NCBI RefSeq assembly: GCF_038396675.1
Contig: NC_088922.1
Coordinates: forward strand, 5,033,501 to 5,097,500
Source of the DNA: Hydra vulgaris
Lineage: Eukaryota > Cnidaria > Hydrozoa > Anthoathecata > Hydridae
Reading direction: 5' to 3'
DNA: 64,000 nucleotides
This document shows, one piece after another, positions 4,490-63,494 of the stretch (positions within the stretch are counted from its first letter, which is position 1; each line of letters starts with the position of its first letter). The position numbers and the translations under genes are program-made. The notes beneath the pieces were generated by a model. The model had not been told where the DNA came from, did not search any database, and saw nothing but the letters and a program-made list of their open reading frames with translations.

Positions 4490-5239
4490 CATACATACAT
4501 ACATACATACATACATACATACATACATACATACATACATACATACATACATACATACATACATACATACATACATACATACATACATACATACATACAT
4601 ACATACATACATACATACATACATACATACATACACACATACATACACACATACAAAAATGTATTTTTTTTCCATTTTTTTCTGTGAAAGAGAAAAAACA
4701 ATCTGTTTAAATATTAATTATTTTAAATCAACACTTTTATTAATTTTTAGTTTTTTTTGAAGTTGAGTCATACGGAGTGTATTTTAAAAGGTTTCGAAAA
4801 CCAAACTCATGGTATATAGCTATTGACAAACTTGGAATTATAAAAACAAGGGTAAGTGAGAATTTCATTTAAAATCTCATTTGTTTTGTTATTTCTGAAC
4901 AACCAGCTACTATACTGTTAACCGACTGATTTTACTAATCGTTAACCAATGGACAAAAATAACTATTAACATTCTAATTGTTAAGATATTAGTCTTATAT
5001 TTTCATGGTTTATATCATATTTTTAGAAATATGGAAGAAAAGATACATTATTTCGGGTCATGTATAACGATGCAGGATGGGCATATTTTCAAAATGATGC
5101 AACAGGTTTTGTGCTTGGTCTGCAACAAAACGGAAAACCAAAAAATAAAATAGCTAACGTCACGCTACGGAATCGAAAAAAAACTTATTTTCTAATTCTA
5201 ACACGTCCAGTGCTCCAACCATTATCAACGATTCGTTAA
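2304..5239 (+). CDS. FGF: Fibroblast growth factor (FGF) ligand, three exons
   Basis: Secreted signalling ligand of the FGF family, expected to bind FGF receptor tyrosine kinases and heparan sulfate. Exon 1 is 2304-2595 (donor GTAAGT at 2596), exon 2 is 4751-4851 (donor GTAAGT at 4852) and exon 3 is 5027-5239 (stop TAA 5237-5239). Intron phases are 1 and 0, and the joined frame is open for about 201 residues. Residues 1-20 form a hydrophobic signal peptide (MLMNLFFLSAIMCLM). The beta-trefoil core starts near residue 68 with TVFLYSKLGYYLTI and GNIMGTLDTKSRD, the equivalents of the family's LY.R.G.HL.I and G.V.GT.D strands. Exon 2 gives WYIAIDKLGIIKTR, the equivalent of YLAMN..G.LY. Exon 3 gives YNDAGWAYF and GKPKNK, the Y.S..W..... 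and G.P.RG strands. The core is divergent and its C-terminal tail is short. Intron 1 (2155 nt) holds a hairpin and a CATA microsatellite. The exon layout is inferred from splice consensus; the family call is firm, the orthologue is not assigned. Confidence 0.88.
3012..3062. repeat. Short-loop inverted repeat in FGF intron 1
   Basis: Arms 3012-3034 and 3040-3062 are complementary at 22 of 23 positions, with a 5-nt loop (TTAGC). It could be a small foldback element or a snap-back duplication. Confidence 0.85.
4461..4655. repeat. (CATA)n microsatellite
   Basis: About 195 bp of nearly uninterrupted ACAT/CATA tetranucleotide, with a few CACA variants near the 3' end. It lies in intron 1 of the FGF gene, about 100 bp upstream of exon 2. 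The long open frames across it are artefacts of the repeat. Confidence 0.98.
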
Positions 5240-6615
<1,376 letters not shown>

Positions 6616-7446
6616 TGTGATAACAAAATATTTTTTTTTATGAAACCACTTGCAATCGAGGAAAGTTTATGAGTAATTGAAGAATAAAAATTACATTTTT
6701 GATTTTTTTAAAAAAAGTTCCACCCCCCCCCACCCTCTTCGGAAGAAAAAAGTGAGAAAATAATTATTTTTTTAAAAATGACGTGTTTTTTGCTTTATTC
6801 AAAAGAATAATAGTAATAACTAAGCAACTTTTATTAACAAATAAGATACAGAGCAGCTAGCAATTTGTCCAAAATGTACAAGAAATGTTTAAAAAATAGT
6901 TTTTGCTATGAACTTCAGGTTCAAAAATTCAATTTTTCTTGATTTCGCATGAAGTTCCTCCGTCAGTTTTACAGCACGTTCAGCAATTTGGTTAGATCTG
7001 GGAATGTCAATTAATGACTCTTTGACTGACCAATGCGTCTCCAAACACTTAACTGCTTTCTTGCATTTTATCTTCATGAGTGAGGCAAACAGTTCATTGA
7101 AGGACGCTTCATTGTAGTGTTGCGAATAGAACCAAGCATTTGCTCATTCTTAGCAGATGAAATCGCATGCGAGAGCGAGAATACTGCGCCACTTTGGTAT
7201 CAGAAATAATGCTATAATAGCATATATCGCACGTGAGTTCCATCTTGCCTGGTGTAAATTTGGGAGTTTCTTCCAGCTGATTCTAGGCCAACGTGAAGTT
7301 GTTTTGTAATGACGATATGCCTGACATAGTTCAATCAAGAACTTAAAATCATCTCGCCATCCAGGGTTCTCGCCTCTGTTAACATCATATGTCGCAACGA
7401 GGTGGTAATCAGCCTGAAGAGAGACATTTTTCTGTTAATTTGTTAA

Positions 7447-7498
7447 TGAAGGATGTTATGGATTTTCTCTTGAATAAGAAAATCCATAACATCCTTCA
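7447..7498. repeat. Perfect short-loop inverted repeat inside transposase remnant
   Basis: Arms 7447-7468 and 7477-7498 are complementary at 22 of 22 positions with an 8-nt loop. On the minus strand the left arm encodes the KDVMDF region right after the CQHH motif, so the second arm looks like an inverted copy of coding sequence. Confidence 0.9.
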
Positions 7499-7987
7499 GA
7501 AGGAGGTCGAGCACATGGTGCTGACAGCTAATATATTGTGGCTTCTGAAAGCCTTTGCTCAAAACATCATCCTGAATGAGCTTTACAATCCCATGCAAAC
7601 GACCAGTATTTACTGCGGTCGTATCGCAGATTATCATGCGAGTATTTTCCCAAGCATCGTATTCATCAATTAGCTGACGTAGTTCCTTGTGAATGGCCGC
7701 GGCAGAACCACTCTCACATTTAAGAATACCGAGTTTGATTTCGGTTGTCAAATATTTCAGCAGAACGACTTGATACTCTTCCCCTTGCATTCTTTTACCA
7801 TCAAACTGGAGACAGTAGGGATCTTTGCTTTAAAGTTTTTGAACAATTTTGGTTTTCATTTTCTGTCCTTCAGAGATTACTCGTTTCCAGACACCCGTCT
7901 GACTTGGAACCGGCACATCATGACCATGTTCAGCAATGGTTGCAAGAACGTCATGTGCTTTATGTGTAGAAATGTTGTATTTCAGTA

Positions 7988-17289: not shown

Positions 17290-19116
17290 TAAAACAGATA
17301 GGGGCTCAAAGAAAATGAGGATGACAGTACGTTATCGCAATCTTTTCATAGAGCCCCTATAACAAGATTTCAAAAAAATATCGTAATATGTTACAGTATG
17401 CGTAATAAAATTTCAATAAAATATCGTAATAAAACGCGTAATTCGCTAATAAAATTGATAAGCAACCAACAAAAGTGGAAATAAAACAAAAACAGATTTA
17501 TGAGAAATTATTCAAAGTATCATTAAACTTTTAAAGTTTTAAACTTGTTATTAAAGCTTATGGGAGAGATATTGTGATTATAACGATACATGAAAATTAA
17601 ATGCTGGTAGATATTTATTTCGAACACATTCATCATTTTCATATCTTTCAAGGGCTTAGCTTGTTCACGCCTATTTTTTGGGTAAATGATTCTGCAGGCA
17701 CGTTTTTGTAGACTATAAATTTTTTTAATCTTTGCCGCTTGAGTACTTGCCCATGAAATGTTTGCATAGCCGATGAAGCTATGAATTAGCCCAAAGTAGA
17801 TTAATTTAAGACTATTTTTATTGACGTAGGAGCGAACTCGATACATCAAACCTATTATTTTGGTGATTTTTGACTGGATATATATTATACGTGGAAGCCA
17901 GGATAATTTTTCATCAACAATGATTCCTAAGAATCTTATATTGGATTGCTTATTTACTAGTTTATCATTTAGAGATAGGTTAGGCAACTTGAGAGGAAGA
18001 TTTTCTTCTTGTGTTTTTTTGTGAAATAGTATATACTTTGTTTTCTCAGCGTTAAGTGAGAGTTTGTTTGCCTTAAACCAGTTGTTTACTTTACACAGTT
18101 CAATATTCATGTCTGCATATAATTTCTTGATATCATTGTTGGTGAGAAATAAGTTTGTGTCATCTGCAAACATGACCGAATTCATTTTTAAAGATGCATG
18201 ACAAAAGTCATTTATATATATTAGAAAAAGAAGTGGACCAAGAATTGATCCTTGCAGGACTCCACATAAGACATTTAATACAGATTGGACTTTATTTACA
18301 TATTGTTTTCTATTTGTAAGATAGCTTTTAATCCAATAAAAAGTTTTATTTATTATTCCGTAATGCCTTAATTTATCTAAGAGAATGCAATGGTCCACTG
18401 TATCGAATGCTTTTGATAAATCAAGAAACACTCCTAAAGTAAATTTATTATTTAAAACCATTAGTTATTTGATTTACTATTTCAATGATTGCATGCTCTG
18501 TAGAGAGATTTTTTTGAAAGCCAAACTGATTTGGGTAAAAAAAATTGTTTTTAATGAAGTAATCATAGATTCTATTATAAACTACACATTCGAAGGGTTT
18601 TGAAAATACAGAAAGTATTGATATAGGCCTGTAGTTTGTAATGTCAGAATGATCATTACATTTGCATAATGGAATTACTTTTGCCAATTTAAGTACATCC
18701 GGAAATATCCCAGAATTTAAAGAGGGCTTAAGTATATGAATCAGGGGTCTATTAAGACTGTGTTTGTTTGCAATAACTATATCACTAGGTATCTCATCAA
18801 ATCCTGGAGCCTTTTTTTTTTTTAAGGAGGCAAAGGCTGCCTCTAATTCTTCATAGCCTAATTCATAATCAAGCATGGTAACGTTATTCGTGGTTTTAAG
18901 ATAAGTTTTAAATGATACAGATGTTGGTGCAATTTTATTTACAAGATTTGGACCAATATTTGTAAAATATTTATTGAATTCTTCTGAAATTAGTTTTTGA
19001 CAAAATATATCGTTATTTTCAATCACACTTCGTTTAGGAAGAGAAGGTGAAATTAGTTTTTCTCTTCCCATTATGAGATTAATGATGGACCATGTTTTTT
19101 TGCTATCAATTTGCAT
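17290..19116 (-). mobile_element. CR1/jockey-group LINE, reverse transcriptase portion
   Basis: The least damaged LINE in the window, read leftwards. The reverse transcriptase begins near 19116 ([12 protein letters not shown]) and contains NYRPISILSVFSKPFE, NQFGFQKNLSTEHA, then after a one-base frameshift LDLSKAFDTVDH, GVLQGSILGPLLFLIYINDF and the catalytic FADDTNLF. The C-terminal domain IRFLGIIVDEKLSW ... RACRIIYPKN continues to the stop at about 17523. The frameshift lies near 18450-18461 and is the only lesion I see in about 530 codons. The endonuclease is missing, so the copy is 5'-truncated next to a (TA)n tract. It encoded an enzyme for target-primed reverse transcription. Fragments at 57370-58385 and 63495-64000 look like the same clade. 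Confidence 0.88.
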
Positions 19117-19134
19117 TTGTTAATTTGATTACTG

Positions 19135-20099: not shown

Positions 20100-22006
20100 T
20101 TATACACATTCGTTACAAATAAATTCCATGGTTGGACGATAATCAAAGACACATTCAATGCATGACCAGTTTGAACACTGCTCACACTCAAGCCATTGGT
20201 TATCTAAGATATTTGTCCAATTAATTTCGCAAGAATAACATAGAAGATCATCAGATACTAAAATGTTATTTGAAGCTTGAGGAAAATAAGAGTCTTCTAA
20301 TTGATTCTTTGTCTTTATACCTTTTTTACCTGGTATTTTAGACGACTGACGTTGTCTCAACTTTTTTTTTTTCTTCTCTTTTCTGTGCATTTTTCGCTTT
20401 TTGAGTGGCAGTGGAAATCTTTTTTTGTTCTCTAGTAAATTTCTTTGCAGCTTGTTCATCTAATTTTTGTTTTTTTGATGCTTTTTCAGCTTCATCGTGA
20501 GCTATGGCATCCGCCGAAGTCATATTATAATTAGCTGGTCGCTTTATTCTCTCACTTTTTTCAACTCTTTTATTTAGAGTTGGTGTCAATTGATCTCGAA
20601 GTATATCTAACACTGATTTGTTTATATCTTTGCCTACTTGTTGAACAGAATTATTTAAAGTAGCAAAGCTTTTAAGCAAAAATTCACGATTTGACATTCT
20701 TGACGATGTGTTAGGTGTATTGGTAGCATTTCCCATAACTAATGGACTAGATACTGTTGAAGAATCAAATAAATTTTCAATATTGTTGTTTTCGACAGCT
20801 TGAAACACAGCACCAATGGAATTTTTTTTAGAAGAAATTTGCGAACGATCGAGTGGAAATATACCAGTATTTTTAAAACCACTCCGTGCATTTTCAGGTT
20901 TAAACCCACCATTTTGGATGAGATCCTTAAACATGGCCGGAAAATGTCGATTAGTCAGGCTTTGAAAGTAATTTTTAGTCAAACAACATTCGACAATTCT
21001 CTTCCAAGCGCCTTTTACTGTTTTAAAAACGCCAACATCTAGTGGCTGTAAAAAATGGCTGGTATGAGCCGGCAAACGCCAAAGTAAAATAGAATTTTCT
21101 AAAGCTTTTTTTTCAACTCTAAGCTCATATGTGAAGCACGGCCATCAAGTATTAGAACTTTAAATCCTGAAAGTTTGTTTGCGTGAGGCAAAAAAACTGT
21201 TTTAAACCACGACAAAAAATGTTCGGATTCCATCCAGCCTGAACTACTATTGTTGTAATAAACATTCTGGACACCGCCTTTGCACCAGTCTTTCATAACA
21301 TGTTTGTTTTTATAAATTATTTGATGAGGTAAATAATTACCGAATGCGTCACAATAAGTCAAGATTGTCGTCATTTGCTTTTCATTCGATGGTGCTAGCT
21401 TTTTAGGGTTTTTTGTTCCTTTTGTACAAATAATTTTGACTTTGCCTTGATCAAATTGCAAACCAGACTCATCACAGTTAAATATTTGAAACGGCTTATC
21501 GCCTAAATTATGTTCATTATATGCTACTGCTAATTGCTCAAACCAATTGTCAATTATAGCTGGTTGTGTGGCCACAGCTCTAATAGTTTGCATACCGCTT
21601 ACTTTTCTTGGGCAAATTTCTTGACGATACTTATTCATGAAACCGGAGTAAAATTCATGAAACCGGAGTACCATTTTCTAGTCGGTTTGCCGTCTTTGAA
21701 TAGACTACGTTGGTTTGATTCTTTTAAATAGTTTTCAACAACAATAAACACGTCTTTTCTATTCAAGCCGAAGCCTATCTCACTCATAAATTTTAATAAA
21801 TCAACAATAATAGCTTTAGTGATGTTGCTCATCTTTCTTGGCGCTCCTCGATTATTAGATGATCCTTTTGTTTTGTCAAAAAGTGTAGATTTTGCCACAT
21901 TATAACACTTAGCAGCTTGTACGTATGACATTTTTTTTTCAGTAATAGCTTGAATAGCTAGCTGGATTCGACTCTCTTGCTCTTCTTTTTGTTTAAAATT
22001 ATCCAT
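20100..22006 (-). pseudogene. pogo transposase with C-terminal PHD-like zinc finger
   Basis: Would catalyse cut-and-paste transposition of the surrounding element. The N-terminus (MDNFKQKEEQESRIQLAIQA) carries a psq-type helix-turn-helix (SYVQAAKCYNVAKSTLFDK) and a CENP-B-like second DNA-binding region ending GKPTRKWYSGF. The DDE_1 domain follows: FNCDESGLQ (first Asp), LILDGRASHMSLEL (second Asp) and the downstream PAHTSHFLQPLDVGVFK block. The last 50 residues have Cys pairs CYSC...CEQCSNWSCIEC...CNEC in a PHD-like pattern. Three lesions break the frame. A duplicated segment TTCATGAAACCGGAGTA near 21634-21668 repeats YSGFMN. One-base changes occur in A-runs near 21110 and 20365. The A-run lesions could be assembly errors. 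Restored length would be about 600 residues, normal for the family. Confidence 0.85.
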
Positions 22007-22113
22007 ATTCTTTAATACAGTAATACAATTAACACAAATGCGTTAACTTTATGGATGCTAAAAAAAATAGCTGTATCTGGATTAGTGTCAATTATTTTTT
22101 TCCTGGTGGCTGA

Positions 22114-22691: not shown

Positions 22692-24600
22692 GAAAACTTG
22701 TGTTCAACTATTTTAACATCAAAAACAAACAAAAAAAAACAAAAAATTAGGTTAAGCTACCGGGAAGTGTGTTTTAAAACTGCATATTTATGGTCAATTT
22801 TTCGTAACTAATTTTTACCCTAACCACAGAAAAGTTAGCAATTTACGAGCTTTGCTATTTAATCATGGCAGAGTCAATATCCTCAAGAACTAGAAAAAGG
22901 AGTGGATCAAAGCTTTCGGAATATATAGGTTCTGGAAAAGATATTTTTGTATCGGAGTTACCAACACTAAGAGATCTTCTTAGATATGGTCTGTTTTTGC
23001 AAGAAAGAAACAATAGAAACAAAAGAAATTATCCGATAAAATCTTTAATGAACGATGTTTACTCAAAGTTAATTAGTAAATGGATCCACGCCAATGCTTT
23101 ATTTGTATATCCTGTAATACATATTGAACATTATATTACTGCAACATTGGTGAATGATTGGAATGCAGCCAACTTGGTTGCTAGGGGAAAAGCAAGCGTA
23201 AAGGATAAAGATAGATTTGCAGTCTCTTTCTATAGAGTTTAATACTCAATGCAGGTCTAGCATTATTGATTGCATTTTTTTTTGATGGCAGAATTGATAA
23301 TATAAATGTTCAATTAGTAGTCGAAGGTTCGTCTAAATATTATCCTGTTACAATCAAAAAGGATCATTATACAGTATGTCAAGAGCCCGGAGGAAGATAT
23401 CTTTTCCATTTCACACCTGAAAAGGCACAAAAACATGTGAAACACGCTGAAGTATTTCCTCAAAATATATATGAATTTTTGAAAAATAATGGTACCAATA
23501 AAAGCTTAAAAGCGATTGGTGGTGATTCTACTAGTGTTAACACAGGATGGTCAGGCGGAGCAATACATTGGCTGGAAGTGAAATTAGGAAGAATGCTAAA
23601 CTGACTGGTTTGCGCACTCCATACAAATGAACTTCCTTTGCCTAATCTAAAAACTACTCTTGATAGAGAGACTCTGAGCAGCAACAAATGGAGAGGCAGT
23701 ATTGGAAAATTATTAAATGACGCAACTGCTCTGGAAATTAATCCATCCTTTGAAAAAATTGATGTCGGATATCCGCTTATTACTCTAAAGGACGAAGTAA
23801 TAAAAAATTTATCCTCCGATCAGTTTTATGGATATAAAATAGTCTCTGCTATTAGAAGTGTAGGAATACCCGCAGACTTGGCTTTACTTAAAATTGAGCC
23901 ACTTAATCATTCCAGATGGTTGACAGCTGCCAACAGACTTTGTAGAGTTTGAGTCTCAAAACATGAGTTAGAAGGCAAGAATTTAAAAAACTTAAAATTA
24001 ATAATTGAGTTCATTGTTGGAGTTTACATGCCTATGTGGTTTAAAATTAAAGTCGAACACTGGTTTACTGAAGGACCGAGACATATTCTTTACCAGCTTA
24101 ACCTTCTGAAACATCAATCAAGTGGAGTACTATAAATTTTTATGCCAACCGTTCGATATTCAGCGTGGTATGCTTTCTCTGAGTCCATCATACAGACCAT
24201 GCTCTACTCGGAGAATGTAGAGGAAAGAAAGACCGCTATAGAGTTAATTGTAAAAATCAAAGGTCCTGGTAATGAAAAACTTCAAACTGGTGATAAAAAT
24301 GTAAGAGCTAGAATAACTCCAGAAATAAAACCAGATGCAACAACGTTTATACAGCTAATCGACTGGAATATCTCATATGAGCCTATTCTTACTTGTGATA
24401 TGACAACAGAAGAAGTAAAACAGATAATATTTCAGCCTATGAATGTTCCGAATTGGCCTTGTCACGGGCAGTCAATTAAAAGACGAGTTTAACAGGTAAC
24501 ATAAGCAGCAATCAAAGTTTATTCTCATGAAAAAAGAAATGGTTTTATAAGAGGACAGGACTTATCAAGACAATTGATGTCTAATAATTGATCAAAGAAA
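22692..24600 (+). pseudogene. Uncharacterised transposase-like gene, copy 1
   Basis: Starts at 22865 with MAESISSRTRKRSGSKLSEY and continues through several frames. DNW-type text VNDWNAANLVARGKASVKDK is followed by a premature stop. The copy at 38.2-38.5 kb continues here with a Cys-rich segment, so this copy appears to have lost it. Then come IGGDSTSVNTGWSGG and a C-x-x-H box (CALHTNELPLP, across a stop) near 23506-23640, arranged like the second Asp and CxxH of hAT transposases. Later segments are GDKNVRARITPEIKPDATTF, LIDWNISYEPILTCDMTTEE and NVPNWPCHGQSIKRRV near 24460. The last box is characteristic of a widespread uncharacterised family in cnidarians and insects (C-H-x-Q-x-(V/I)-(E/K)-R). 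At least four stops or frameshifts are present. The left side abuts the pogo element. The 5' flank (TATAGAAAACTTGTGTTCAA) matches the copy at 37390-38940. Confidence 0.6.
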
Positions 24601-26319: not shown

Positions 26320-27224
26320 TAAGAAGAATGGCTAGAACAAAATTTTATCAATTTTTAACGTCGTTGTTAAAAAACGTAACTAATATTTTATATACAAGAT
26401 GTAACAAAGTAACATTTTTGTATTTTACAAAATGCCAAAGTTATTTTGTTTTATTTCCAAAATAAGGGCTTAAGAGTAATTTTTATAAGTTTTTTTTTAT
26501 CTAAAACAGAACAACGGAACAATCTTACATTTAAAGATAAACTTTAACTTCTAAATAATTCAATTTAGCAGCAAACAAACTTTAACTTTGACATTCTCTC
26601 AGTTTGCAAAAACATGGACTTATAACAAGATAATTTTAACGACGCGACTTGTTAGATTAAAAAACATGGACTTATAACAAGATAATTTTAACGACTTGTT
26701 AGATTAAAAAAATGCATATTCTTTTAATATTCTAATTGTGTGTAATAATTAGAACAATTATCTTCACCAACCATTGTAATGCTAATCCTTTAAAAGGATT
26801 ACATATATAATCACACGATTCACTGATTATTTATCATTATTAATATACTTAGATTTACTAACTTATCATTATCAATATTTATTAAAACTGCAGACATATT
26901 TACTTTTTGATCTTAATTTCATCAGTATCCAAATGACAGTCATTGTGCAACTATTGCAAGTCATCAGACATATTCTAAAAATATGCTACAAAATAATATA
27001 AAAACTAAAAATATCATAATTACTATAAATATCATTTAAGAATATTGTTTTGGTCTACTAACTTGGAACTTTGAAAAATCATCAAATTTTTTAGACTAGA
27101 GGATTTGTTATTTAATAATTTTCTCATTTGAATAATCTAAATATTAATACGCTAATGAATATTAATACGTCTAATGTTCGTGTTGTTAATGTCGGTTCTG
27201 TATTCTGTAAAATACACCATTTCT
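26320..27224. other. Non-coding flank upstream of the micro-exon gene
   Basis: AT-rich, with the tandem duplication above and no gene I can support. An ATG at 27174 opens a short hydrophobic frame (MFVLLMSVLYS) followed by GTAAAA, but its phase does not fit the downstream exons. Confidence 0.4.
26608..26710. repeat. Tandem duplication of about 50 bp
   Basis: AAAACATGGACTTATAACAA and the following 30 bases occur twice in a row. The first copy has an extra GCGAC insertion. Confidence 0.9.
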
Positions 27225-27790
27225 TAGTTTTTAAGTAGTTTCTAGACTTTTGAATGCGCGGTTATATATTCCATGCGGTCTTTCGAGTAAGGTCAGCTAG
27301 CAAATTAGAGCTGATATATTATTATTTTCGAAAAGAATTGATGTTGTTCATTGTTTAAAATAAAAATTTAAATAACCGTTTGTTTGTTGTTGGTTGTTTT
27401 TATTTTTCTAATTTTTATAGCCTGTTTTTATTTTTTAGAAGAAGTTAGAAATAAAATGTCTGGTAAAATAGTTTTTTTAGTACTATCTAAACATGAATAC
27501 TGTAATTTATCTAATCTTCTAAATATGAATACTGTAATTTAATAGTGTTAGTGTTGTTTCACTTTCTTTTTTAATAAAGAACTTTCTAGGCTTTTCTAAA
27601 AGCGTTTCTTTACTCCACGCGGTCTTTCAACCAAGGTCTTCCAGCCGATTAGAGCTGATAAATTTTTAATTTCAAGAGGAACTGATGTTGTTCATTGTTT
27701 AAAAACTAAAATTTGTTTGTTGTTCGTTGTTTTTATTTTTCTGTTTTTTTTTAGAAGAAGTTAAAACTAAAATGACTGGTAAAAAATTTT
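27225..27790 (+). repeat. Tandemly duplicated first-exon unit of the micro-exon gene
   Basis: About 27225-27470 and 27575-27790 are diverged direct copies, with exon starts 316 bp apart. Shared landmarks in order are CTAG(A/G)CTTTT, GCGGTCTTTC, TTAGAGCTGAT, TGATGTTGTTCATTGTTTAA and TTGTTTGTTGTT. Each unit ends in a 24-nt exon (27439-27462 and 27755-27778) after a TTTTTTAG acceptor. Each exon contains ATG in the sequence AAAATG(T/A)CTG. Confidence 0.85.
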
Positions 27791-30734
27791 TAGTACAATG
27801 TTTCTTTTTTAGTAAAGTGTTTTAGTTTTGTCTTCAGTCTTTTTAGATCAATTTAAGCAAGTATTTTTCATTTTTTAGAGCAGTTAAAAGGAGCTGAAGG
27901 CCATTTTAGTAAGTATATAGTGTATAGTAGTTTACTTATAGTTTATATTAGTAACATAGTTATATTAGTTTATTTATAGTTTATATTAGTTTATATAGTA
28001 TATAGTAGTTTATTTATAGTTTATATTAGTTCAACTTTATTTATCGTTTATATTAGTAAGTTTATTTATAGATTATAGATTAGGATTAATGAGAATACAA
28101 ATTTTTTTTCAGACAGGCTAGCTGACAGCGACTTAAGTAAGTTTTATCATTTAGATTTTATTTGAGTACAAATGTAGCATTAGCAATTTTATTGTATATA
28201 ATTTTATCTCAATTTTTTTTTTTAGACAGACAGGTAGAACTCAGTAAGGACTTAGATTTTGTAGATTTAAAAACTTCTTTTGAATATTCTTTTAAAGCAT
28301 TGAATATGTTTTAAATATTTTAATAAATTTTGTCATTTAGGTGTGGTAGCATCATCAGTTGGTGCAAATAGTAATGTCTTTTATTTTATTTTACAGCAAA
28401 TAGTAATGTCTTTTAATTTATTTTAAAAAGAATTAATAAATATTGTTTATTTAAACATAATCATCAGGATAAAATAGATAAGATAGATAAAATAGCTTTT
28501 TTATTTAATATTTTTTTATTTAGTTATAACTTCAGTTGCACCTTACTTGAATTACATATGTTACTTAGCTTTTCAAGCAATAAATATTGTTTATTTCAAC
28601 ATTATCGTCAAGATTATATAAAAAAAACTTTTTATTTGATAATTTATTTTAATTGCTTCTGGATCAACTTTAAATAATGGTAACTCATTAATTCATATTT
28701 TATTATAGATAAATGTAGATAAAAAAATGTAAGTTGGAAATTTTTGTAGATTTAAAAGCAGTAAGCTTTTTTCTAAAGGTTCTTACTATTTTTGGATTAA
28801 ATCCAATATCACTACATTTGTTCTATGTTTATATAATGTACTTTAATAATTTTTGTCATTTGAAAAAAAATATATCTATGTTAAATTACACCAGGTTGTC
28901 GAAAATAGTTATAGTTTAATGATAATGTTGTAGACTGTTAGAGCAGATTAGAGATCTTTGATCTATTTAATCTATTTAATAACCTACTACCAAAGGGAAA
29001 ATTTACTATCAGTTGTTTGTTTGTTTTTCTGTTTAGTTGACAACAATGAAGAGAGAGGTAGTATGTTTAAAAGGATTTTTTTTTTTTTATAAAGTAACTA
29101 AAATGTTTTTTAAAATATTGTTGTTGACTTAAAAGTAAAACAGTAGGTTTTTATAATTTTATACAATAAGCCCAAGAACTTAGGTAATACTTAAAATTAT
29201 ATTGTCAATAATAGAGAAAAAATTTAAAATTCTCACTAAGACAGCTTCTTATTATTTTACATCAAGTTAGTTTAATTAAAATTTATTTTCTTTAGTTGAT
29301 CAAGAAAGAGCTAATAAAGGTATTAGTTATATTAGTTTAGTGAATTTATTTTTAAAAAGTTAAGTAGATATTTTAACGTCTATACATTTAAGTGGTTTTA
29401 TTGTTTAGACACAGAATTGAAGAGTGAAATAAGTCAGTGTTTTTGCTATTAGATAATTGTTAATAGGAATTTGTTTATTTTTACTGTAACTGGAATTTTA
29501 AAACTTCAAGTACTTAAGCTTTATTTTCTTTTTTCTTTTAGAAGAGTTGGAAAAAAAACTAAGTATAAATTATGTGATTAGTATAGTTAAATAAAGCATT
29601 TATATCTGTACACTCAGTGGTCCAAGTCAGTTGTCACATTTTAGAAATTGTCCAGGAGAGAGTAAATAGTAAAATAATTAGTCTTTATTGGCATTTTTTT
29701 TCTTGATGGTTAAATTTATGTTTTATTTAATTTGTCTCATTTAATTTGTCTTGAGGCACATGAAATATAATTTTGACAAAAATAAAAAGTTAAATAAAAA
29801 AGTGAAAAATCATTTCTGAACTACAGACGTTTTTCCTTTGAACATTGTGGGGACACTAGACCCTCTATATTGATCAAACTTTGTTTCACATTGTTGCAGG
29901 AAAACATCTTTAGTCTTTATACCTATGCAGATACTGAAAAACTAAAAAGGTCTCATACATAACTCATTTTCACAAAAAACTGGATAACCGACCTTTGTCT
30001 TCTGAGGTACAGATATTAAAATTTAAAGTTTATTTTAGTTTTTTGGTTTAGTTTATAGTTAATTTTAGTTTAGTTTTTATTAGTTTTAGCTTCAGTTATC
30101 TTTTTTCTTACTTTAGACAACTTCATGGAAGAAATGAGGGGAATAGGTAAAAAAAATTATAGTTATATATTTATTTATATGTAAATATAATTCTATCAAT
30201 TATTCTGAGGTATATTTTGTCTTTAGTGTCTGGTAGAAGCATAACTGGTAGGGCTGTGTTTTAAATTTTATATATTTTTTACGGAGAAATATGTGCAATA
30301 GGTGAAAGAATTATTTAATATAAATATGACATTTTTAAACTGTTTGCATTTTACTCATATTTTTATTAAAATTAAATTTCTCACAAGTTTAACTCTTTTT
30401 AATTTACTTTTTTTTAATTTATTTTTAGCATCCTCTTCATCCTGTGAAAATGGTGAGGTTATGCTTTATATTTTGATTAAAAAAAATTGTAAATATTTTT
30501 AAATTTTGTTATATCCTTCTATTTGTACTTTTAGAGTCGTTAACATTTGAGGAATACCAAAGATATCGCCTTCAACACCCAGGGCCTCTCTCGGAGAGGT
30601 CCTTCAATAAGTGGCAAAGTAATGGCGGTATGGATGAGCCATCCTTCAAATGGAGGGCTCATCCATACCGGGGTGTTGGGAGACACCGAAGAAAAAACAG
30701 CCACCAAAAGGTCGTAAATGTTTTCTATCAGTGA
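27439..30734 (+). CDS. Micro-exon gene encoding an unrecognised 165-residue protein
   Basis: I infer 14 tiny exons plus a terminal exon: 27439-27462, 27755-27778, 27879-27908, 28113-28136, 28226-28243, 28341-28370, 29037-29057, 29296-29319, 29409-29432, 29542-29562, 29645-29668, 30117-30146, 30227-30247, 30429-30452 and 30535-30734 (stop TGA 30732-30734). Every internal exon is 18-30 nt and a multiple of three. Every junction is phase 1, every acceptor is a T-rich stretch plus AG, and donors are mostly GTAA or GTA. Introns are 80-240 nt except two (666 and 448 nt). The joined frame has no stop. The first two exons look like alternative starts giving Met-Ser-Glu or Met-Thr-Glu; their 5' ends are splice acceptors, which would fit spliced-leader trans-splicing as known in Hydra. 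The middle is rich in Glu, Lys and Arg (for example DNNEER, DQERANK, TELKSEI, ELEKKL) and may be helical. The C-terminal 65 residues (LTFEEYQRYRLQHPG ... HPYRGVGRHRRKN) are basic. No signal peptide or family match is seen. Alternative donors exist for some exons (for example 28226 and 29645), so individual boundaries are less certain than the array. Confidence 0.75.
28653..28679 (+). other. Probable dead micro-exon with lost acceptor
   Basis: A 27-nt segment reads in phase 1 as ASGSTLNN and is followed by the donor GTAACT. The expected acceptor AG at 28651-28652 is AA, preceded by TTTATTTT. Length and phase fit the array, so this looks like an exon inactivated by one G-to-A change. Confidence 0.4.
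28704..28880 (+). other. Decayed paralogue of the 28226 exon-intron unit
   Basis: The donor-side intron of the exon at 28226 (TTTGTAGATTTAAAA ... TTTTAATAAATTTTGTCATTTAG) reappears at 28725-28862 (TTTTTGTAGATTTAAAAGCA ... TTTAATAATTTTTGTCATTTG). In the copy the final AG acceptor is lost (TTTGAAA), and the preceding exon-like segment (ATAAATGTAGATAAAAAAAT) has a stop in phase 1. This indicates growth of the array by unit duplication followed by decay. Confidence 0.5.
30627..30669. repeat. Inverted repeat in the terminal exon of the micro-exon gene
   Basis: Arms 30627-30644 and 30652-30669 are complementary at 17 of 18 positions with a 7-nt loop. It lies inside the coding part of the last exon, encoding GMDEPSFKWRAHPYR, and preserves the frame. 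Confidence 0.85.
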
Positions 30735-31987
30735 AGATATTTATAACTTTTTTGTTGCCGTTTTTTCTTCAGTGACTTATTTTTATTTTTTTTAATTTTG
30801 TAATTTTTTTTTTTTAATTTGTAATTTCTTTTTATTATATATTGTTGTATATTTGGTTTGCTTTTGTCTTTTTTAATTGAAATTTTATTTGTTTTTCACC
30901 AATTAAACTTAAATATAGTTAAATTGATTCACTACCCAATCATCATAATATGATGCTACATTCTATTTGTTAAAAATAATTAATTGGTAGTTTAATTTAT
31001 TGAAAACACTGCTTTTAAAATTTACTATAAGCCAAGACTATTTAGCTATATAAATGCAATTCATTTACATCTAATTGATTTTTTATCTTTAATGTTTTTA
31101 GTTTGGCTGTTTGAAGCATTTGTTTTTTTGCTTTTTAATTAAAATATTAAATCTATTGTTATGTCTTTTAAATTTAACTAAAGTTTACTAAAAGCCAACG
31201 TGAAATAACGTCGTAAAACAACACCGACAAGTTGCATCATGACAGCAGTTTAAGTATGACAACAGGCTACCGAAAAGCAGGAAATTGTATTCCAGTTGTT
31301 TTTTTTTGTTTTGTTTTTCTTTTATGTCTACTTATCTGTTACAATTTTTATTTTAAGTTTGTCATACGACGTATTAATGCAATATAAAAAATCAAAGTTT
31401 ACATATTTTTTACAATTTGTTATACACATGTTTAATTGTAAATCAACTTTCTTTTGTTTGAAGCGTATTTGTACTCAATTGCTTAGTTATTTATAATAAA
31501 TTTATTTAGTCGTGTGCATTTATCGCTTTAAAGACAATTTCCTTTTTTAAAGAAACATGTATCAAGGAGATACCAAAAATTAATAACTCATAAATAATTT
31601 ACGTTCACTTTATATTAATCTTATTAATTAAAGTTCATGTTATAAAAAATATAACAAGAATTTACCTTTAATCTTTCGTCAATTTAAGGCATGATGAAGT
31701 GTTATTATTTTGTGTCAGTAACTAAAAACGTACTGTGTTGAACTTAGTAATGTCTAGGAAAATGGTTCTGCCATACACTGATATGACCTATGTCGGTTGT
31801 AAATTACTCAAATAACGTTAAATAATTGAAAAATTAAATTATTTTAATTTTGCAGATGGCTTAATTTTTTAAGTTGAAGGTTTTTTTCTTACATGGTATT
31901 AGTTAAGGTTTCGCAACTTTAACCGACCGTAACCCGTATTACGGGTTGCTTTCTGCTAGTATATATTATTAAACTTAATGATTATTT
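30735..31987. other. 3' flank of the micro-exon gene, no further gene seen
   Basis: T-rich 3' untranslated-like sequence with ATTAAA at 30902-30907 as a possible polyadenylation signal, then AT-rich DNA without supported features up to the mariner-like element. Confidence 0.45.
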
Positions 31988-31989
31988 TA

Positions 31990-33780
31990 CAGGGTTTATG
32001 CGAAATATAAAACATTTTTTAAAAAAATATAAAACATTTCTTAAGAAAATATAAAACATTTTTTAAGAAAATATAAAACGTTTTTTAAGAAAATATTAAA
32101 CAATTTTTAAGAAAATATAAAACAGTTTTTAAGAAAATATAAAGCATTTTTTAAGAAAATGTTAAACGTTTTTTAAGAATTTATAAAACATTTTTTTAGA
32201 GAATACAAAACAAATTGTAAGAAAATTAAAAACAAATTTATAAAATTATAAAACATTAAAAATATATATAAAAAATAATTTTTAAGAAAATATAAAACAT
32301 TTTAGTTATTTAAGAGTGCATACGGAAACGGCCTTATAGAAGTATAATTAGCTTTAAGACAACTAAAGTATTCATCGATCGGGTTCAATTGCGGTGAATA
32401 AGGTGGGAAAAAGTAAACTGAAACATTGGATTGGCCGAGCAAATCGATTACATCTCTTTGACGATGAAATGCACAATTATCCAATACTAGCACAGAATGA
32501 GGATTCCTTTGGAAATACGGTCTTAAATTTTTGGTTATAAAATCACAAATAATATTGCCATTATAGGCACCATCCACTATCTTAAAGCTTAGAATACCAT
32601 TCACTGTTATTAGCGGCCATTAGACTTACATTCTTTCCACGATTTGCTGGCACTGTAACAAAACATTTTGTATTCTTTACAGAATAGCCATATTGCTTAG
32701 AAGTATGTAAGTTAAAGCCTGTTTTATCTAGAAATACTAAGTTATTGTCAGGAATCGAATTAATAGTCCTGCAAAAACTTTGTCTTAAATCAACGTTTTG
32801 CGGCGAGTTCCTTTCTTTTAGTACTAATGTAAGTCGTTTTCTAGTGAACTCCATCGACTTCAAATTCTTAGATATTGTTGGAATAGATGCATTAATGTTC
32901 CTTTCGATGAGAATGTTTTTCAATGATGCTAAAGTATGAGATGGATCATGCTCAATTAACAATCGAATTTCAGATTTAAGTGTCTCGTCATAAGAGCTGC
33001 GCCTTCCTTTTTTTACTGATGTGATTTCATCATCGCTAAGTCCTTTACTGATTTTATCAGAAATAGAACGTGTTGCAGAAACTGTTATTTCAACTTCTTC
33101 CGCTATTTCTTTTAACTTCATTTCTTTTAGAATTGACTTTCTTATGGTTTTTACAATATCCTTTGTAATAAGTGTTCTTTTTTTCCTTTCTCTCTAATTT
33201 TCCATTTATCAATTAAAACAACAAAATAAAGCTTGAATAATATATTTTAATTATAAACATAGTAATGCATGATTACATATGTATCGCATTTAAAAAGTTT
33301 TCTCTGGTTAAAAAAAAGCATTTGTTTAATATGGATATAGTAATTTTTCTATTTTTCATTGTACTAAATGTAAACTTAAAACTATAACGAACATTACTCG
33401 CCATATTAAATCTTTTAAATTTGGAATAAAAGTATTATATCTTGTAAACATAAAACTTTTATTCCATACTTATAAGTCTGATTCCAAACTTTAAGGTATG
33501 ATAAAAAGTTTGATAATAGACTCGAAAAATTATACTTTCAAGGCACTTACAATGAACAACTAATTTACTACCACCGTCCTTTTTTTTTATTTTTTATAGT
33601 TCTTTTCTTTGTCATGAATAAACCTCATAAACTCCAAAGTGTTATGGGAGTAATTGTGTAATTAAATGTGTAATTATTTTCTTAAAAAATGTTTTATATT
33701 TTCTTAAAAACTGTTTTATATTTTCTTAAAAAAAGTTTTATATTTTTTTTAAAAAAGCTTTATATTTTGCATTAACCCTG
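31990..33780. mobile_element. mariner-like transposon with satellite-type inverted repeats
   Basis: Ends are CAGGGTTTATGCGAAATATA (31990-32009) and its inverse with two changes (CAGGGTTAATGCAAAATATA, ending at 33780). Both are flanked by TA (31988-31989 and 33781-33782). Inside each end is a tandem array of a roughly 22-bp unit AATATAAAACATTTTTTAAG: about a dozen copies on the left (31999-32300) and four or five on the right (33668-33770), in inverted orientation. The transposase gene on the minus strand lies between them. Confidence 0.85.
32302..33207 (-). pseudogene. Tc1/mariner-superfamily transposase (DD34D-like)
   Basis: Cut-and-paste transposase of the IS630/Tc1/mariner group. An N-terminal helix-turn-helix region (MKLKEIAEEVEITVSATRSI) is followed by a Lys/Arg linker GRRSSYDETLKSEIR and a second DNA-binding region. 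The catalytic domain has VFLDKTGFNLH (first Asp), SVLVLDNCAFHRQ (second Asp) and PPYSPQLNPIDEYFSCLK. Thirty-four residues separate the second Asp from the Asp of NPID, as in mariner DD34D, but a Glu follows immediately, so DD35E cannot be excluded. The frame shifts near 32590-32604 at LMAANNS / NGILSFKIVDG. The likely natural start near 33207 is followed by a stop (MEN*). The copy is therefore inactive. Confidence 0.8.
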
Positions 33781-37389: not shown

Positions 37390-38940
37390 TCAATGGCGTG
37401 GTTTTTTAAACCAAACTTTTTTATACTTTTTTAGTTTTTTGCTATTAGGTGTTGATGTCAATATTTTAGAGTTTTCATCTGATTCTGTTGAACATATTAT
37501 TAATGAAGATATGTTATTTTGCAACAGTAAATCAGCTGCTGCTTTAAATTTTATACAATGTCTCTTGGCCAAGGTTGTTTTCTTACGCTTTTTCCCTCAT
37601 TTTGATGTTTTCGCAACAAACTTAGATTATATACCTTACTTTTTTCAACTTTCACATTCAATAATATTGCAACACTCTTAATATGGTAGTAACAAGTTTT
37701 AACGTAAACTTTGTGACCTTATTGAATTGCTTTGCACTTAGGTAAAAAGAGTTTTACGTCTTCTATTAAGTTTAAATAACATTTTTTTCCAATTTTTTAT
37801 TGGCACATATTTGTAATTGCTTTCTTTCTGTCAATTATTATCGGTGCATTTTTTCCTAACTTTTCAAGATTTAATAAACAATTTACAAACATCTGCCAAA
37901 ACATTGTGTGTATTATTTATAATTTTCCTTCGTGGAATAAAAAAACGAAGGAATTATTGGACTTTTTTCATAGTCAATACTTCTCATTACTACATTTGTA
38001 ATATAAAAATTGCCCAATTTGAACGTTGCAGATTTACTTGTAATATAAATAAAATTAACTTTACTTTAGAGATTATTCTTTATTAACAATTAAAAAAAAA
38101 AACAATTAAAAAAATCTTACTTCTTCCTTCAATCTTCTTTCTCCAGTTTTATGTAGCTTTTTGTTTTCTTTCAAGTCAGCTAACCCGATTTGATGTGGAC
38201 CGGTAGTCCCTATTTTAGCTCTTTGCCCAAGTATAGAAACTCTTTCTTTGGAATCTTTTTCTTCCTTTCGCACGTGCAATTAATGCGGGCTTCATCGTTA
38301 CATTCTGACGAGCAGTTTTTTTCTTGACAAGTAATAATTTGGCAATTACAATTCAGTATATCAAACAACTTGTCAAGGTTTGCCACAAATCTATCTTTAT
38401 CCTTTACGCTTGCTTTTCCCCTAGCAACCAAGTTGGCTGCATTCCAATCATTCACCAATGTTGCAGTAATATAATGTTCAATAGGTATTACAGGATGTAA
38501 AAATAAAGCATTGGCGTGGATCCATTTACTAATTAACTTTGAATAAGTTTTCTAGTTCTTGAGGATATTGACTCTGCCATGAATAAATAGCAAAGCTCGT
38601 AATTTGCTAACTTTTTGCGTAAATACTTTTTTAATAATACTTTTTAACATATAACATATTAATTATTAGTTTGACAATTTATATATCGGAAACTTTATAT
38701 AGTTTTGATATTACATAGAATTCAAATTAAGTAGGTGTAAATAATTACTTGCGTTTAAAAATGCGCGGACGCAAAACAGTATCTATGGTTAGGGTCAAAG
38801 CTAATTACGAAAATTTGACCATAAATATGCATTTTCAAAACACACTTCCCGGTAGCTTAACCTAATTTTTTTGTTGTTTTTATGTTTTAATTGTTACAAT
38901 AGTTGAACACAAGTTTTCTATATACCGGGTTTTTGTAAAA
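37390..38940 (-). pseudogene. Uncharacterised transposase-like gene, copy 2
   Basis: The same family as the gene at 22.9-24.5 kb, opposite orientation. The 5' flank (38940-38590 read leftwards) and the start MAESISSRT.K near 38580 are shared, as are SKLISKWIHANALF and VNDWNAANLVARGKASVKDK (near 38450). Here the next segment is retained: LFDILNCNCQIITCQEKNC, then CTCERKKKIPKKEF, a Cys-rich module with the KIP..E motif. An N-terminal stretch present in copy 1 is deleted. Beyond about 38100 only a short charged frame near 37572-37390 remains, which I cannot place. Not functional. Confidence 0.55.
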
Positions 38941-49415: not shown

Positions 49416-50230
49416 GTTTTTAAACATCTTCGCTTCCAACAAGGCTGCAAGCAGCCACTTATTAAAGTTGGAAGTTACTGTAAGAGAAAAGATGAAGATT
49501 GTAGAGCAAGATAACGATTGACGGACGATTTAAAAGATTGCAAATTATATGAATCAGGAAAGCAAGATGAAGGAAGCGAATTCCAAAGAGTTGATGTTCG
49601 AGGAAAAAAACTAGACGAATAAGCGTTTTTGGAGCACTTAGGAACAGTCACAGAAAAAGGATGACACTTAATTGAATGACGAGTAACACGAGAATGAATT
49701 TTAGTAGATGGCACAAGAGACGCTAGCTCTTTAGAGCAGTGCCCATTATAGTATTTGTAGAAAAGAGAAAGAGAAGCAACATTACGACGATGTGATAATG
49801 GTTGAAGGTTGGCTGCAAGAGCAGGTCCAACTATGTTTACAATGCGTTTTTGCACCTTGTCTAAAAGAGAAAGGGCATCATTAGAAGATCCGCCCCAGAT
49901 ATGGCAACAGTATTCCATACAAGGCCGGATTTGAGATTTATAGAGGTAGAGAATAGAATCCAGAGTAAGAAAGTGGCGAGCTCGATAAAGAGATGCAACC
50001 TTAGCAGATGCTAATTTTGCAACCGATTTGATATATGGTTTCCAAGAAAGATTGGAAGTAAGAGTTAATCCTAGAAGACGAAGAGTAGGTGACTCATCGA
50101 GTACATCACCATTCATAAATATAGGAAGATCTAAATTATTGCGATAACGATTGGCTGAAAAAAATTGAGTTTTATCTGAATTAAAGTTCACCAGCCACTG
50201 TGAGCCCCATGCTGTAGCATAAGTGAGATA
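49401..50230 (-). mobile_element. Jockey/CR1-group LINE, 3' end
   Basis: 5'-truncated non-LTR retrotransposon. Residues from WLVNFNSDKTQFFSAN through LRLLGLTLTSNLSWKPYIKS, YKSQIRPCMEYCCHIWGGSS, LLDKVQKRIVNIVGPALAAN and WNSLPSSCFPDSYNLQSFKS form the thumb and C-terminal part of the reverse transcriptase. About 240 codons are open without interruption, so this is a young insertion. The 3' untranslated region ends in an A-run and then (TA)n. Truncation at about 50225 is at a TA tract. Confidence 0.88.
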
Positions 50231-50259
50231 TATATATATATATATTATATATATATATG

Positions 50260-51289
50260 CAACTATGTATTGTGCCATCTTAAATAAAAAATTTAAGTAA
50301 TTTAATGAACAAAAAATAACTAATAATAGCAAATAACAATAAATAATAAATAAATAATAGTAAAAAAATTAACAACATAAAAAAGTTAAAAAAAGAGCAG
50401 TTTATGAAAATAATTAGGATAATTTTGAATTGTGCTAATTAAAAAAAAGTTAATTGTCAAGAATTTCAAAATTTATGTCATTAAAAAAAATTAATTTGTG
50501 CGAGTTGTTATTTCCAAAAATATGTAGTTATTATTGTAAAAAATATGTAGAAATCGTTACTTCAAAAAATATGTAGGATATGTTATTTTAAAAAATATGC
50601 AGGAGTCGTTATTTAAAAAAATATGTTATTAAAAAAATATGTAGAAGATGTTCTTTCAGAAAATATGTAGGAATTGTTTTTCAAAGAACATGGAGGAGTT
50701 GTTTATAAAAAAGATTTGCTAATACTTACAATGCATGACTTTTACCAAATTTATGGTTTTAAAAGTATCGAATAAACTTTTATAATCAAATTTATGTGGT
50801 AATCACTATATTATATTTATTTAGAATAAAAAACTTTTATATAGGTCAATCAGTTTAAAAAGGTTTTTCTAAAGAATGTGAATTTAATTATGCGGATATT
50901 ACGTTTGATATGATATAATGGTTGAAAACTTCCTTTTTCCTTTTTAAAGCAATTTTCATATTGTATTTTGTTTTTATTCTTTAAATTTTTAGTGTTTTTG
51001 CTAACTATTACAATCTTTAGATCATTTTAAATGTTTTTAATGATTTATTTATCTATAAAGTAAAACCTATAAACAATATATGTAAACGAGGAATTAATTA
51101 TTAAATTGTTAAAAAACATGCAAAAAATTACAACTTTTTTCATGTTTAACGGTATTTTTAGTTAGTATGTTTAATGGTTTTATTTTTACGTTTTGAGAGA
51201 TTTTGAAAATTATATCTAAAAAAATGCACGTGCACTATAATTTAAACCTTTTTGGGGTTATTTTTTCTAGGTTATCTAATTTTGTGTGA
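50260..51289. other. Intergenic sequence with a degenerate minisatellite
   Basis: Between about 50505 and 50715 a roughly 30-bp unit AAAAAATATGTAGGA...GTTATT repeats six to seven times with variation. No gene is seen in the rest. Confidence 0.55.
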
Positions 51290-61554: not shown

Positions 61555-63494
61555 GCCAGATAAGCAGCCAAAAAAATCAGGCGGCTAGCCAGCCACAAAA
61601 ATGTAGGCTAGCCTCTCATGCCATCAGCTAGCCGGTCAGAATTTTTTTTAGCCAGCCATGAAAGTAAAATACCGTGGCTAGGAGGTCTATCTTACTATCA
61701 TAGTACCTCTTACAACTACCTTGCTGCTGACTGGGACTCTTTTCATGATTTTCTTCGTGATGGCCCATGGGGAGAAAACTTTCGTCTTTCTGCTGACAAA
61801 TGTGCTTCTTGTATAACATTTTGGATTTAGGCTGGCAAGTAATCTTTTCTTCGCTCTCAATGATTCCGAATCAAGTCTCACTCTTCTCCATTGATATCCT
61901 CTCACTGTGCTGCGGCAATTTCCAATCGTAACTATTACTTTCTTATTTATCAGCAAAACGATTTTCCAGAAAACAGATGTCTGTTTACGATTACTAAATT
62001 AAGGCTCTCGTGACTTCTAGAAAATCCTTAACAGTATCAATAATAAGGGCAAATCTGTTATTCTACCACTCTTGTATAGCTCATTTTTTGTCACCTCACC
62101 TAAATACAAAGCTAAATTGTTTGCAGAGAACTTCTCATCAATATCATCTCTTGATTCCACTAGTTGTGCTCTGCCTGATGTAGCCGAAAAACAGTTTGAT
62201 CTATTGCTTGATGTTCTTATCACTCCAGTCTCTGTATCTAAAGTGATTTCCTACTTAGACGTTTCCACAGTTTGTGGTCCGTACAAAATACCTGCTATAA
62301 TCTTGCAAAAGTGTTCTCCGGAGCTGTCATTTATACTTTTAAAACTATTCAACATGTGCTTATTAAAGCCTTGTTTTCCATCCTGCTAGAAAGCAGCATC
62401 TATAATCCCTATTTTCAACAATTCTTGAGTGCGATCTGATTTGTCTAACTACCGTGCAATTAGTCTTCTTACAATCATAAGCGCAATATGAGTCTTTAAT
62501 TAGCAAACACTTCTCGTTCTACTGTTGATTTGTTAACCGTAATAACCAATAGGTTTTATCGTTTATTGAATAGATGTGAAGAGGTCAAGATAATTGATCT
62601 TAACATTTCTAAAGCTTTTTATAAGGTTTAGCATGTTGGTCTTCTCCATAAGTTTTCTTCTTATAGTGTATCAATATCAAGTAACATCTTTAAGATTATG
62701 TAATCCATTTTGACAAATCGTAGTATAAAGGTTGTCCTCAATGGACAGCACTCTTCTTCATATCCTCCAACTTCAGGCGTTCCTTTGCTCTTTTTAGTTT
62801 ACATTAGAGTCAGAAATTCTTACATCTAAGGTGGAATTGTTCGCTGATGATACTACCATGTATTCTTGTCTTAAAAAAAAACCAACACTCTATAATTGTT
62901 TGGAGGGTATTTGAGCTTTAAAAGGATCTCACTTCTGCTACAGCATGAGACTTTCAGCGGTTGGTGAACTTTACCTCAGATAAAACTCAATTTTTTTCAG
63001 CTAATTGTTATCGCAATAACCTAGATCTTTTTATATTTTCGTATGGGTTTATGTATAATGCTATTTCTGATTTTGACAAGGTGCAAAAACGCATTGTAAA
63101 CAAAGTCAGACCTGCTTTTTCAGCCAACTTTCAACCATTGTCACATCGTTGTAACGTTGTTTCGCCTTCTCTTTTCTATAAATACTATAATGGGCGCTGC
63201 TCTAAAGAGCGTCTCTTGTGCCATCTACAAAAGTTCATTCTCGTTACTTCTAATTCAATCAAGTCTCATCATTTTACTGTGACAGTTCCTAAGTGCTCTG
63301 AAAATTCTTATTCGTCTTTTCCTAAAACATCAGTTCTTTTGAATTCGCTCCCTTTATCTTGTTTTCCTGATTCATATAATTTACAACCTTTTAAGTCGTC
63401 TGCTAATCGTTATCTATAAACCTATATCTATAAATTGCTCTATAAACCAAGAAAAAAAAATTTTAAACCAAGCTAAGTTAGAATTCGATATTAA

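Follow-up and report, generated by a model that had tools for sequence, protein, structure and literature searches.

A symmetric micro-exon gene of Hydra vulgaris lies within a dispersed non-autonomous Helitron

What is a run of very short, phase-matched exons in the genome of Hydra vulgaris, and does it form a gene by itself? The question is raised by a 64,000-nt stretch of contig NC_088922.1 (positions 5,033,501-5,097,500, forward strand; hereafter the window, to which coordinates refer unless another locus is named). A preliminary description had placed in it one gene of symmetric, phase-1 micro-exons extending from 27439 to the end of a terminal exon at 30734. Homologous proteins and other copies of the locus bear out this exon pattern, but the array does not stand alone: it is the coding part of one copy of a non-autonomous Helitron (27136-31959) whose family is dispersed through the Hydra genome. 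The gene is very probably carried, and perhaps owned, by a Hydra Helitron lineage; a putative function of the gene is taken up below.

Helitrons move via rolling-circle copying of one strand, driven by a Rep/helicase protein (Rep/Hel), and are recognized by TC at the 5' end, a hairpin followed by CTRR at the 3' end, and insertion between A and T. The following features delimit the element in the window.

27136-31959, forward strand: non-autonomous Helitron copy carrying the micro-exon gene, 4,824 bp, placed by the homology limits of dispersed copies and by terminal signatures
27136-27160, forward strand: Helitron 5' end, TCTAAATATTAATACG..., with an A before it, placed by alignment of the 5' ends of copies
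31929-31959, forward strand: Helitron 3' end, comprising the hairpin AACCCGTATTACGGGTT and CTAG, then a T, placed by alignment of 3' ends and by a genome count

In the Hydra assembly that holds the window (911.5 Mb, 15 contigs), the terminal exon has at least 40 near full-length places, i.e., its own and 39 others at 95-97% (among the best 40 of 612 candidates scored). We fetched 20 copies with their flanks, from 12 of the 15 contigs, and all match parts of the element, introns included. When 25.5-33 kb of the window was compared with these copies, matches were confined to 27108-31979, with collinear pieces ~84-97% identical to the window element. In 12 copies a single piece starts in the 5' region and reaches 31429 or beyond, while the other eight have inner gaps or no 5' part. 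Among readable 5' ends, TC was found in 14 of 17 (19 rows, from the window and 18 copies, the 5' region being missing from L015 and L023), and an A precedes it in 12 of these 14. At the 3' end, CTAG is present in 18 of 19 readable rows, the exception being L016 (window plus 20 copies, no row having been obtained for L013 and L017), and is directly followed by T in all 18. By these end alignments, the element inserts between an A and a T and leaves the target unduplicated. None of the 25 longest inverted pairs, out of 35, links the two ends as terminal inverted repeats would, and no empty site was found among the fetched loci, where automatic end pairing often chose an inner copy of the 5' end. 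In the window element, a tandem duplication lies near an inner copy of the 5' end and the start exon (27233-27407 and 27577-27751, 344-bp spacing).

The exact 30-mer of the 3' end occurs 252 times in the assembly (130 + 122), as compared to 0 + 0 for its reversed control. It lies within 3.5 kb downstream and on the same strand for 27 of the 63 sequences encoding the terminal-exon tail on contigs C1-C6 (150 tails were listed genome-wide), whereas control pairing on the wrong side or strand gave none. Conversely, 27 of the 98 3' ends on C1-C6 have such a tail, leaving 36 tails and 71 ends without an exact partner in the lists. Among three loci with a 3' end but no listed tail, L053 is another micro-exon element, L052 shares the last 83 bp only, and L051 matches in its final 31 bp and in some short internal pieces. 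An ordinary single cellular micro-exon gene with a Helitron as its chance neighbor would fit the exon structure and the annotated homologous proteins. Such a gene is nevertheless highly improbable, and refuted for the window locus, given homology that takes in the introns and extends on either side as far as the Helitron ends, the spread over contigs, and the tie of tails to the exact 3' end.

Several copies contain ~620 bp (7891-8513 of L018, opposite window position 31429) that the window and other copies lack. Locus L030, considered as a larger element, was rejected as such and is a Helitron copy interrupted by a different transposon with an 838-aa frame (5151-7667, reverse strand). A 1787-aa "open frame" at C8:64409811 was likewise rejected, being a run of N.

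Sequence reading and splice-site listing reveal 11 well-formed internal exons in the window, each of 18-30 nt and a multiple of three, in a layout of T-rich-AG, short exon, and GT. Each internal exon begins at the second position of a codon (phase-1 introns), and the joined frame stays open until a stop codon at 30732-30734. The exons and candidate exons are as follows.

27439-27462, forward strand: candidate start exon 1a, from the site listing and copy alignment, without support from the proteins found
27755-27778, forward strand: candidate start exon 1b, adjoining the tandem duplication of the 5' region (344-bp spacing), without support from the proteins found
27879-27908, forward strand: micro-exon 2, 30 nt (P0036; copies)
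28113-28136, forward strand: micro-exon 3, 24 nt (P0036; copies)
28226-28243, forward strand: micro-exon 4, 18 nt (P0036; copies)
28341-28370, forward strand: micro-exon 5, 30 nt (P0036, P0014; copies)
28397-28402, forward strand: possible 6-nt exon (copy alignment only, no protein support)
28524-28544, forward strand: micro-exon 7, 3' limit uncertain (P0036, P0014; copies; L018)
28653-28679, forward strand: micro-exon 8, 27 nt (P0036, P0014; copies)
28709-28714, forward strand: possible 6-nt exon (copy alignment only, no protein support)
29037-29057, forward strand: micro-exon 10, 21 nt (P0036, P0014; copies)
29296-29319, forward strand: micro-exon 11, 24 nt (copies)
29409-29432, forward strand: micro-exon 12, 24 nt (copies)
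29542-29562, forward strand: micro-exon 13, 21 nt (copies)
30117-30146, forward strand: micro-exon 14, 30 nt (P0001; copies)
30227-30247, forward strand: micro-exon 15, 21 nt (P0001, P0014; copies)
30429-30452, forward strand: micro-exon 16, 24 nt (P0001, P0014; copies)
30535-30734, forward strand: terminal exon encoding the conserved C-terminal tail, stop codon included (tail homology, tail tree, selection test)

A chance run of splice-like signals in AT-rich DNA would be in keeping with generic site counts, which are raised only mildly: a splice-score count found 8 units in the target, of which 5 have a length divisible by three and an open frame, as against maxima of 7 units, 3 with a length divisible by three, and 2 with an open frame in non-overlapping windows. 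Taken alone, this count is weak evidence for the exon chain. We accept the chain because homologous proteins hold the micro-exon peptides of the window in order, which refutes a chance origin and leaves it a practically negligible probability. A search with the joined protein, the check proposed alongside the preliminary description, returned 36 matching proteins from 72 candidates at a cut-off of E ≤ 10 (weakest E 8e-7), of which 34 are from Hydra vulgaris and two are on ENA contigs. Peptides of P0036 correspond in order to exons 2-3-4-5-7-8-10, those of P0014 to exons 5-7-8-10-15-16-17, and those of P0001 to exons 14-15-16-17. The direct splice of exon 10 to exon 15 in P0014 is an in-frame skip of exons 11-14. 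For exons 11-13, the basis is conservation of exon and splice sites in other copies, with a weak likeness by eye to P0017. Exon 15 also has a 54-nt-longer form among homologs (P0008 versus P0003), within which the window has a stop.

Across the copies, reading frames and splice sites are largely intact, with 12-21 usable rows per exon out of 21 (20 copies and the window). The gene copy in the window has damaged splice sites: exon 7 has no GT donor at the point where P0014 and P0036 exit (L018 has VITSVAPATT followed by GT), and the acceptor of exon 8 is AA rather than the AG of most copies. Of the micro-exons described earlier, 11 internal ones are well formed; exons 7 and 8 are splice-damaged in the window, and the 6-nt exons have no counterpart in the proteins found. 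Both proposed start exons appear in the site listing, and no protein found supports either. The suggestion that exons can be skipped without a frameshift agrees with the annotated isoforms, which differ by whole in-frame blocks.

Two further searches scored the candidates with the most words in common with the query. An alignment-based search identified at least 40 proteins, 36 of them from Hydra vulgaris (among the best 7,986 candidates scored), and a search with P0040 identified at least 42, all from Hydra vulgaris (among the best 7,997 candidates scored). Among the matches listed in all three protein searches, every one with an organism name is from Hydra vulgaris, in agreement with the assignment of the gene to a cnidarian. 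Proteins annotated under several LOC names (P0017, P0018, P0020-P0023, and P0026) differ from P0019 by whole blocks of 8-37 residues, with no mismatch in six and two in one; P0031, from a further locus, has five mismatches to P0019. The 12 proteins of LOC124816666 differ from the longest by blocks, which are single-residue ones six times, and by two mismatches in total, and the nine proteins of LOC124810892 differ from the longest by blocks without a mismatch. Some isoform blocks resemble retained introns. No near match to the P0019-type genes was found in the Hydra assembly (best tail 77%).

Collectively, these observations show a Hydra gene family of one design, comprising an N-terminal part, a linker of symmetric micro-exons, and a constant C-terminal tail. 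By eye, the N-terminal part looks like a coiled coil, and the joined frame shows no signal peptide, as had been noted before, although the start exons are unproven. The tail or linker design recurs in proteins of at least about three dozen Hydra LOC names, which have many isoforms, and the family therefore matters for annotation; one of them is named integumentary mucin C.1-like and another larval cuticle protein F1-like.

What moves this Helitron? The window copy is non-autonomous and encodes no Rep/Hel: no such frame was found in the window element. It has Helitron ends but no Rep/Hel, and would therefore need a partner, for instance one of the L054 type. P0035 is a fusion of a Helitron Rep piece with the tail of the micro-exon gene; the Rep piece has no match in the window or in the 20 copies, and a genome search with P0035 gave at least 153 matches (best 150 of 2,348 candidates scored). 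At C2:39307900-39317700 (L057 and L054), broken frames match Helitron_like_N (3.5e-30), PIF1 (2.3e-27), and Pif1_2B. The last 350-400 bp of this locus are common to three of four micro-exon elements compared, at 86-94% (L013 has no such match), and 80-90 bp of its 5' region match three of the four at 84-90%; ~120 bp just past the tail exon are also in common. On sequence comparison, the 3' end of this Rep/PIF1-helicase Helitron and a portion of its 5' region are shared with the window element.

The tail gene and Rep are also found joined or close together. L055 and L056 are fusions, with different junctions, of Rep pieces and the final portion of the micro-exon gene. Pairing of the best 150 Rep places with 220 listed tail places on all contigs gave, within 10 kb, seven tails downstream on the same strand, none upstream, and none on the opposite strand (9, 1, and 2, respectively, within 50 kb). 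Assignment of three of the seven Rep-adjacent tails to another branch was dropped, as their identity to P0040 (46-53%) resembles that of A-type tails. Uninterrupted frames of 1308 aa were observed at the Helitron Rep places C10:2171245, C13:46059927, and C13:46071569.

Among the 21 aligned rows, private changes per cell amount to 0.0064-0.0081 at codon positions, 0.0119 in introns, and 0.0125 in splice dinucleotides. They give no codon-position signal, and the lower rate in exons is biased because copies were ranked by similarity of the terminal exon. Some copies carry stops or frame gaps. Between branches the pattern differs. In 20 pairs of near tails (window, L013, L033, L035, and L031) with distant tails (L058-L061), the proportion of nonsynonymous differences (pN) is 0.37-0.48 and that of synonymous differences (pS) is 0.69-0.87 (Fisher p 7e-7 to 0.006). 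The six pairs within L058-L061 have pN of 0.25-0.50 and pS of 0.65-0.84 (p 2e-6 to 0.036), with an omega (nonsynonymous to synonymous rate ratio) of 0.20 for L059-L061, and 5 of the 10 near-near pairs reach p < 0.05 (window-L035, omega 0.32, p = 0.012); these tails were collected by protein similarity, which favors conserved ones. Amino-acid identity of 30-62% persists despite near-saturated synonymous sites, replacement sites falling short of saturation, and therefore indicates protein constraint on the tail. The tail has been under long-term purifying selection between branches, while single inserted copies drift. Fast evolution, which the preliminary description named for the likened gene families, was not seen in the tail.

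The terminal exon may be constrained in a second way, through a predicted three-way hairpin; an inverted repeat lies across its stop codon.

30572-30681, approximate, forward strand: predicted three-way hairpin within the tail exon (folding and shuffle tests)
30681-30777, forward strand: imperfect inverted repeat of 45 nt spanning the stop codon (inverted-repeat listing)

The tail exon with 66 further nt folds at -105 kcal/mol (z = -9.0 versus dinucleotide shuffles). Relative to synonymous-codon shuffles, z is -3.8 to -6.5 in six near tails and -4.7, -2.9, -3.1, and -1.2 in four distant ones, such that 9 of 10 tails fold clearly more stably; for L061 significance is not reached, with 26 of 200 shuffles being as stable. 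Folded by itself, L060, at 40% protein identity to the window, shows an outer stem and an inner hairpin in matching columns. Inspection by eye finds just an inner hairpin thereabouts in L058 and L059, and neither feature in L061. Pairs projected onto the four distant tails hold in 112 of 208 cells versus ~77 when slid, with 19 two-sided changes. These predictions are suggestive of a conserved hairpin structure in the tail exon. Selection acting chiefly on a structured nucleic acid, i.e., hairpins of the transferred single-stranded DNA or of RNA with the protein secondary, would account for the folds that beat synonymous shuffles and for the shared stem and hairpin of L060. We consider it improbable, since the amino-acid identity at near-saturated synonymous sites demands protein constraint, and since 112 of 208 cells keep the projected pairs as compared to ~77 when slid, and L061 is not significant.

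To whom, then, does the constrained gene belong? In one account, the gene is a resident second gene 3' of Rep/Hel that makes a small, oligomerizing, nucleic-acid-binding helper protein; we give this somewhat less than an even chance. If transcribed and spliced, the gene would encode a protein that starts with a helical segment and continues through a linker into the constant tail. The frame would survive the skipping or loss of a micro-exon, so that the linker could vary in length while both ends stay constant. The helper may be of the Gag or ORF1 kind. A fuller version, in which the Helitron lineage owns this second gene, the phase-1 micro-exons are an adaptation to a decaying, deletion-prone element, and the last exon is doubly constrained as protein tail and as three-way hairpin, is unlikely in all its parts together.

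The main competitor is that a host micro-exon gene was captured with its introns by a Helitron and spread as cargo, the tail constraint being that of host genes and the Helitron copies mostly dead. Gene capture by Helitrons is established, inserted copies drift almost neutrally, loci of the LOC124810892 type (isoforms numbered to X24) resemble working genes, and most listed Rep places lack a listed tail nearby. Set against this, the protein groups found are each spread over several large contigs, none having been seen as single-copy, and a close Rep and tail always occur in the same order and on the same strand. Capture is a serious contender, about as likely as the resident-gene account, that stops short of an even chance.

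Several observations weigh against our explanation. The element-end evidence is limited to A-type copies. L054, which bears Rep/Hel, gave no tail match, and no element was seen with both a full Rep/Hel and a full micro-exon gene. For 143 of the 150 listed Rep places, the next 10 kb downstream contain no listed tail. The outermost ~24 bases of the L057 and L054 5' end are not recognizable. Among recent copies, splice dinucleotides are as changeable as introns, and omega on a tail tree of copies chosen by similarity is 0.60 for inner and 0.79 for outer branches (p = 0.18 each, not significant). The isoforms are annotation models, known here from names and protein sequences. Finally, no credible domain for the tail emerged from Pfam, PDB, or profile searches, and its structure model is poor (mean predicted local distance difference test score 63), for which reasons the helper role is a guess. 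Searches of phage and viral contigs gave no match.

How does this element compare with known systems? It resembles other Helitrons in its TC 5' end, hairpin and CTAG 3' end, A/T insertion site, and a Rep/PIF1-helicase relative with common terminal regions, and differs in carrying a symmetric micro-exon gene with a conserved tail. No such element is described in the portions consulted of the literature on Helitrons with micro-exons or on Helitrons in Hydra, including the Hydra passages of PMC3627910, or in those on micro-exons in Hydra or cnidarians. L1 ORF1 and Gag are helper proteins of other transposons; the Hydra protein is like them, by eye, in its helical N-terminal part and basic C-terminal part, and has neither homology nor a fold match to them; a corresponding role is conjectural.

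Bicycle proteins of aphids carry CYC motifs and a signal peptide, neither of which was found on reading the Hydra joined frame. According to the passages drawn on from PMC9168663, bicycle genes comprise many micro-exons, with internal exons nearly all starting at codon position 2, as in the Hydra gene, and have close paralogs on separate chromosomes that the authors took as frequent transposition. Bicycle genes are putative aphid effectors, unlike the Hydra gene, and the same passages name no carrier element. Micro-exon genes (MEGs) of schistosomes, in the passages drawn on from PMC8293314, have symmetric exons ≤36 nt, in-frame skipping, and transposons enriched nearby, and their proteins have signal peptides and raised nonsynonymous to synonymous substitution ratios (dN/dS). 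The Hydra gene is like them in having symmetric exons ≤36 nt over most of its length; it differs in its constrained tail and its position inside a transposon, and no signal peptide is visible in it by eye. The likeness in layout to both families that was drawn earlier therefore stands. No sequence relation was found to aphid bicycle genes or, the named matches among those listed all being from Hydra vulgaris, to schistosome MEGs.

Micro-exon genes are known from parasites, where they are a puzzle, resemble effectors, and are suspected to have spread with the help of transposons. In Hydra, such a gene lies within the transposon itself, in a free-living laboratory animal that is open to testing. 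If the fuller version given above holds, micro-exon families of other animals may have started as, or been spread by, transposon genes.

Other mobile elements were recognized by eye elsewhere in the window. Pieces of a Tc1/mariner-like transposase (32302-33193, reverse strand) start ~340 bp past the Helitron 3' end, and frames of a pogo/Tigger-like transposase with a PHD-like C-terminal part occupy 20100-22042 (reverse strand). Fragments of non-long terminal repeat reverse transcriptases are present at 17523-19119 (reverse strand), 49475-50368 (reverse strand), and 62021-63905. One frame (LISKWIHANALF.HPVI.IEHYITATLVNDWNAANLVARGK) occurs twice, at 22808-24492 (forward strand) and 38210-38551 (reverse strand), i.e., on opposite strands and ~15 kb apart.

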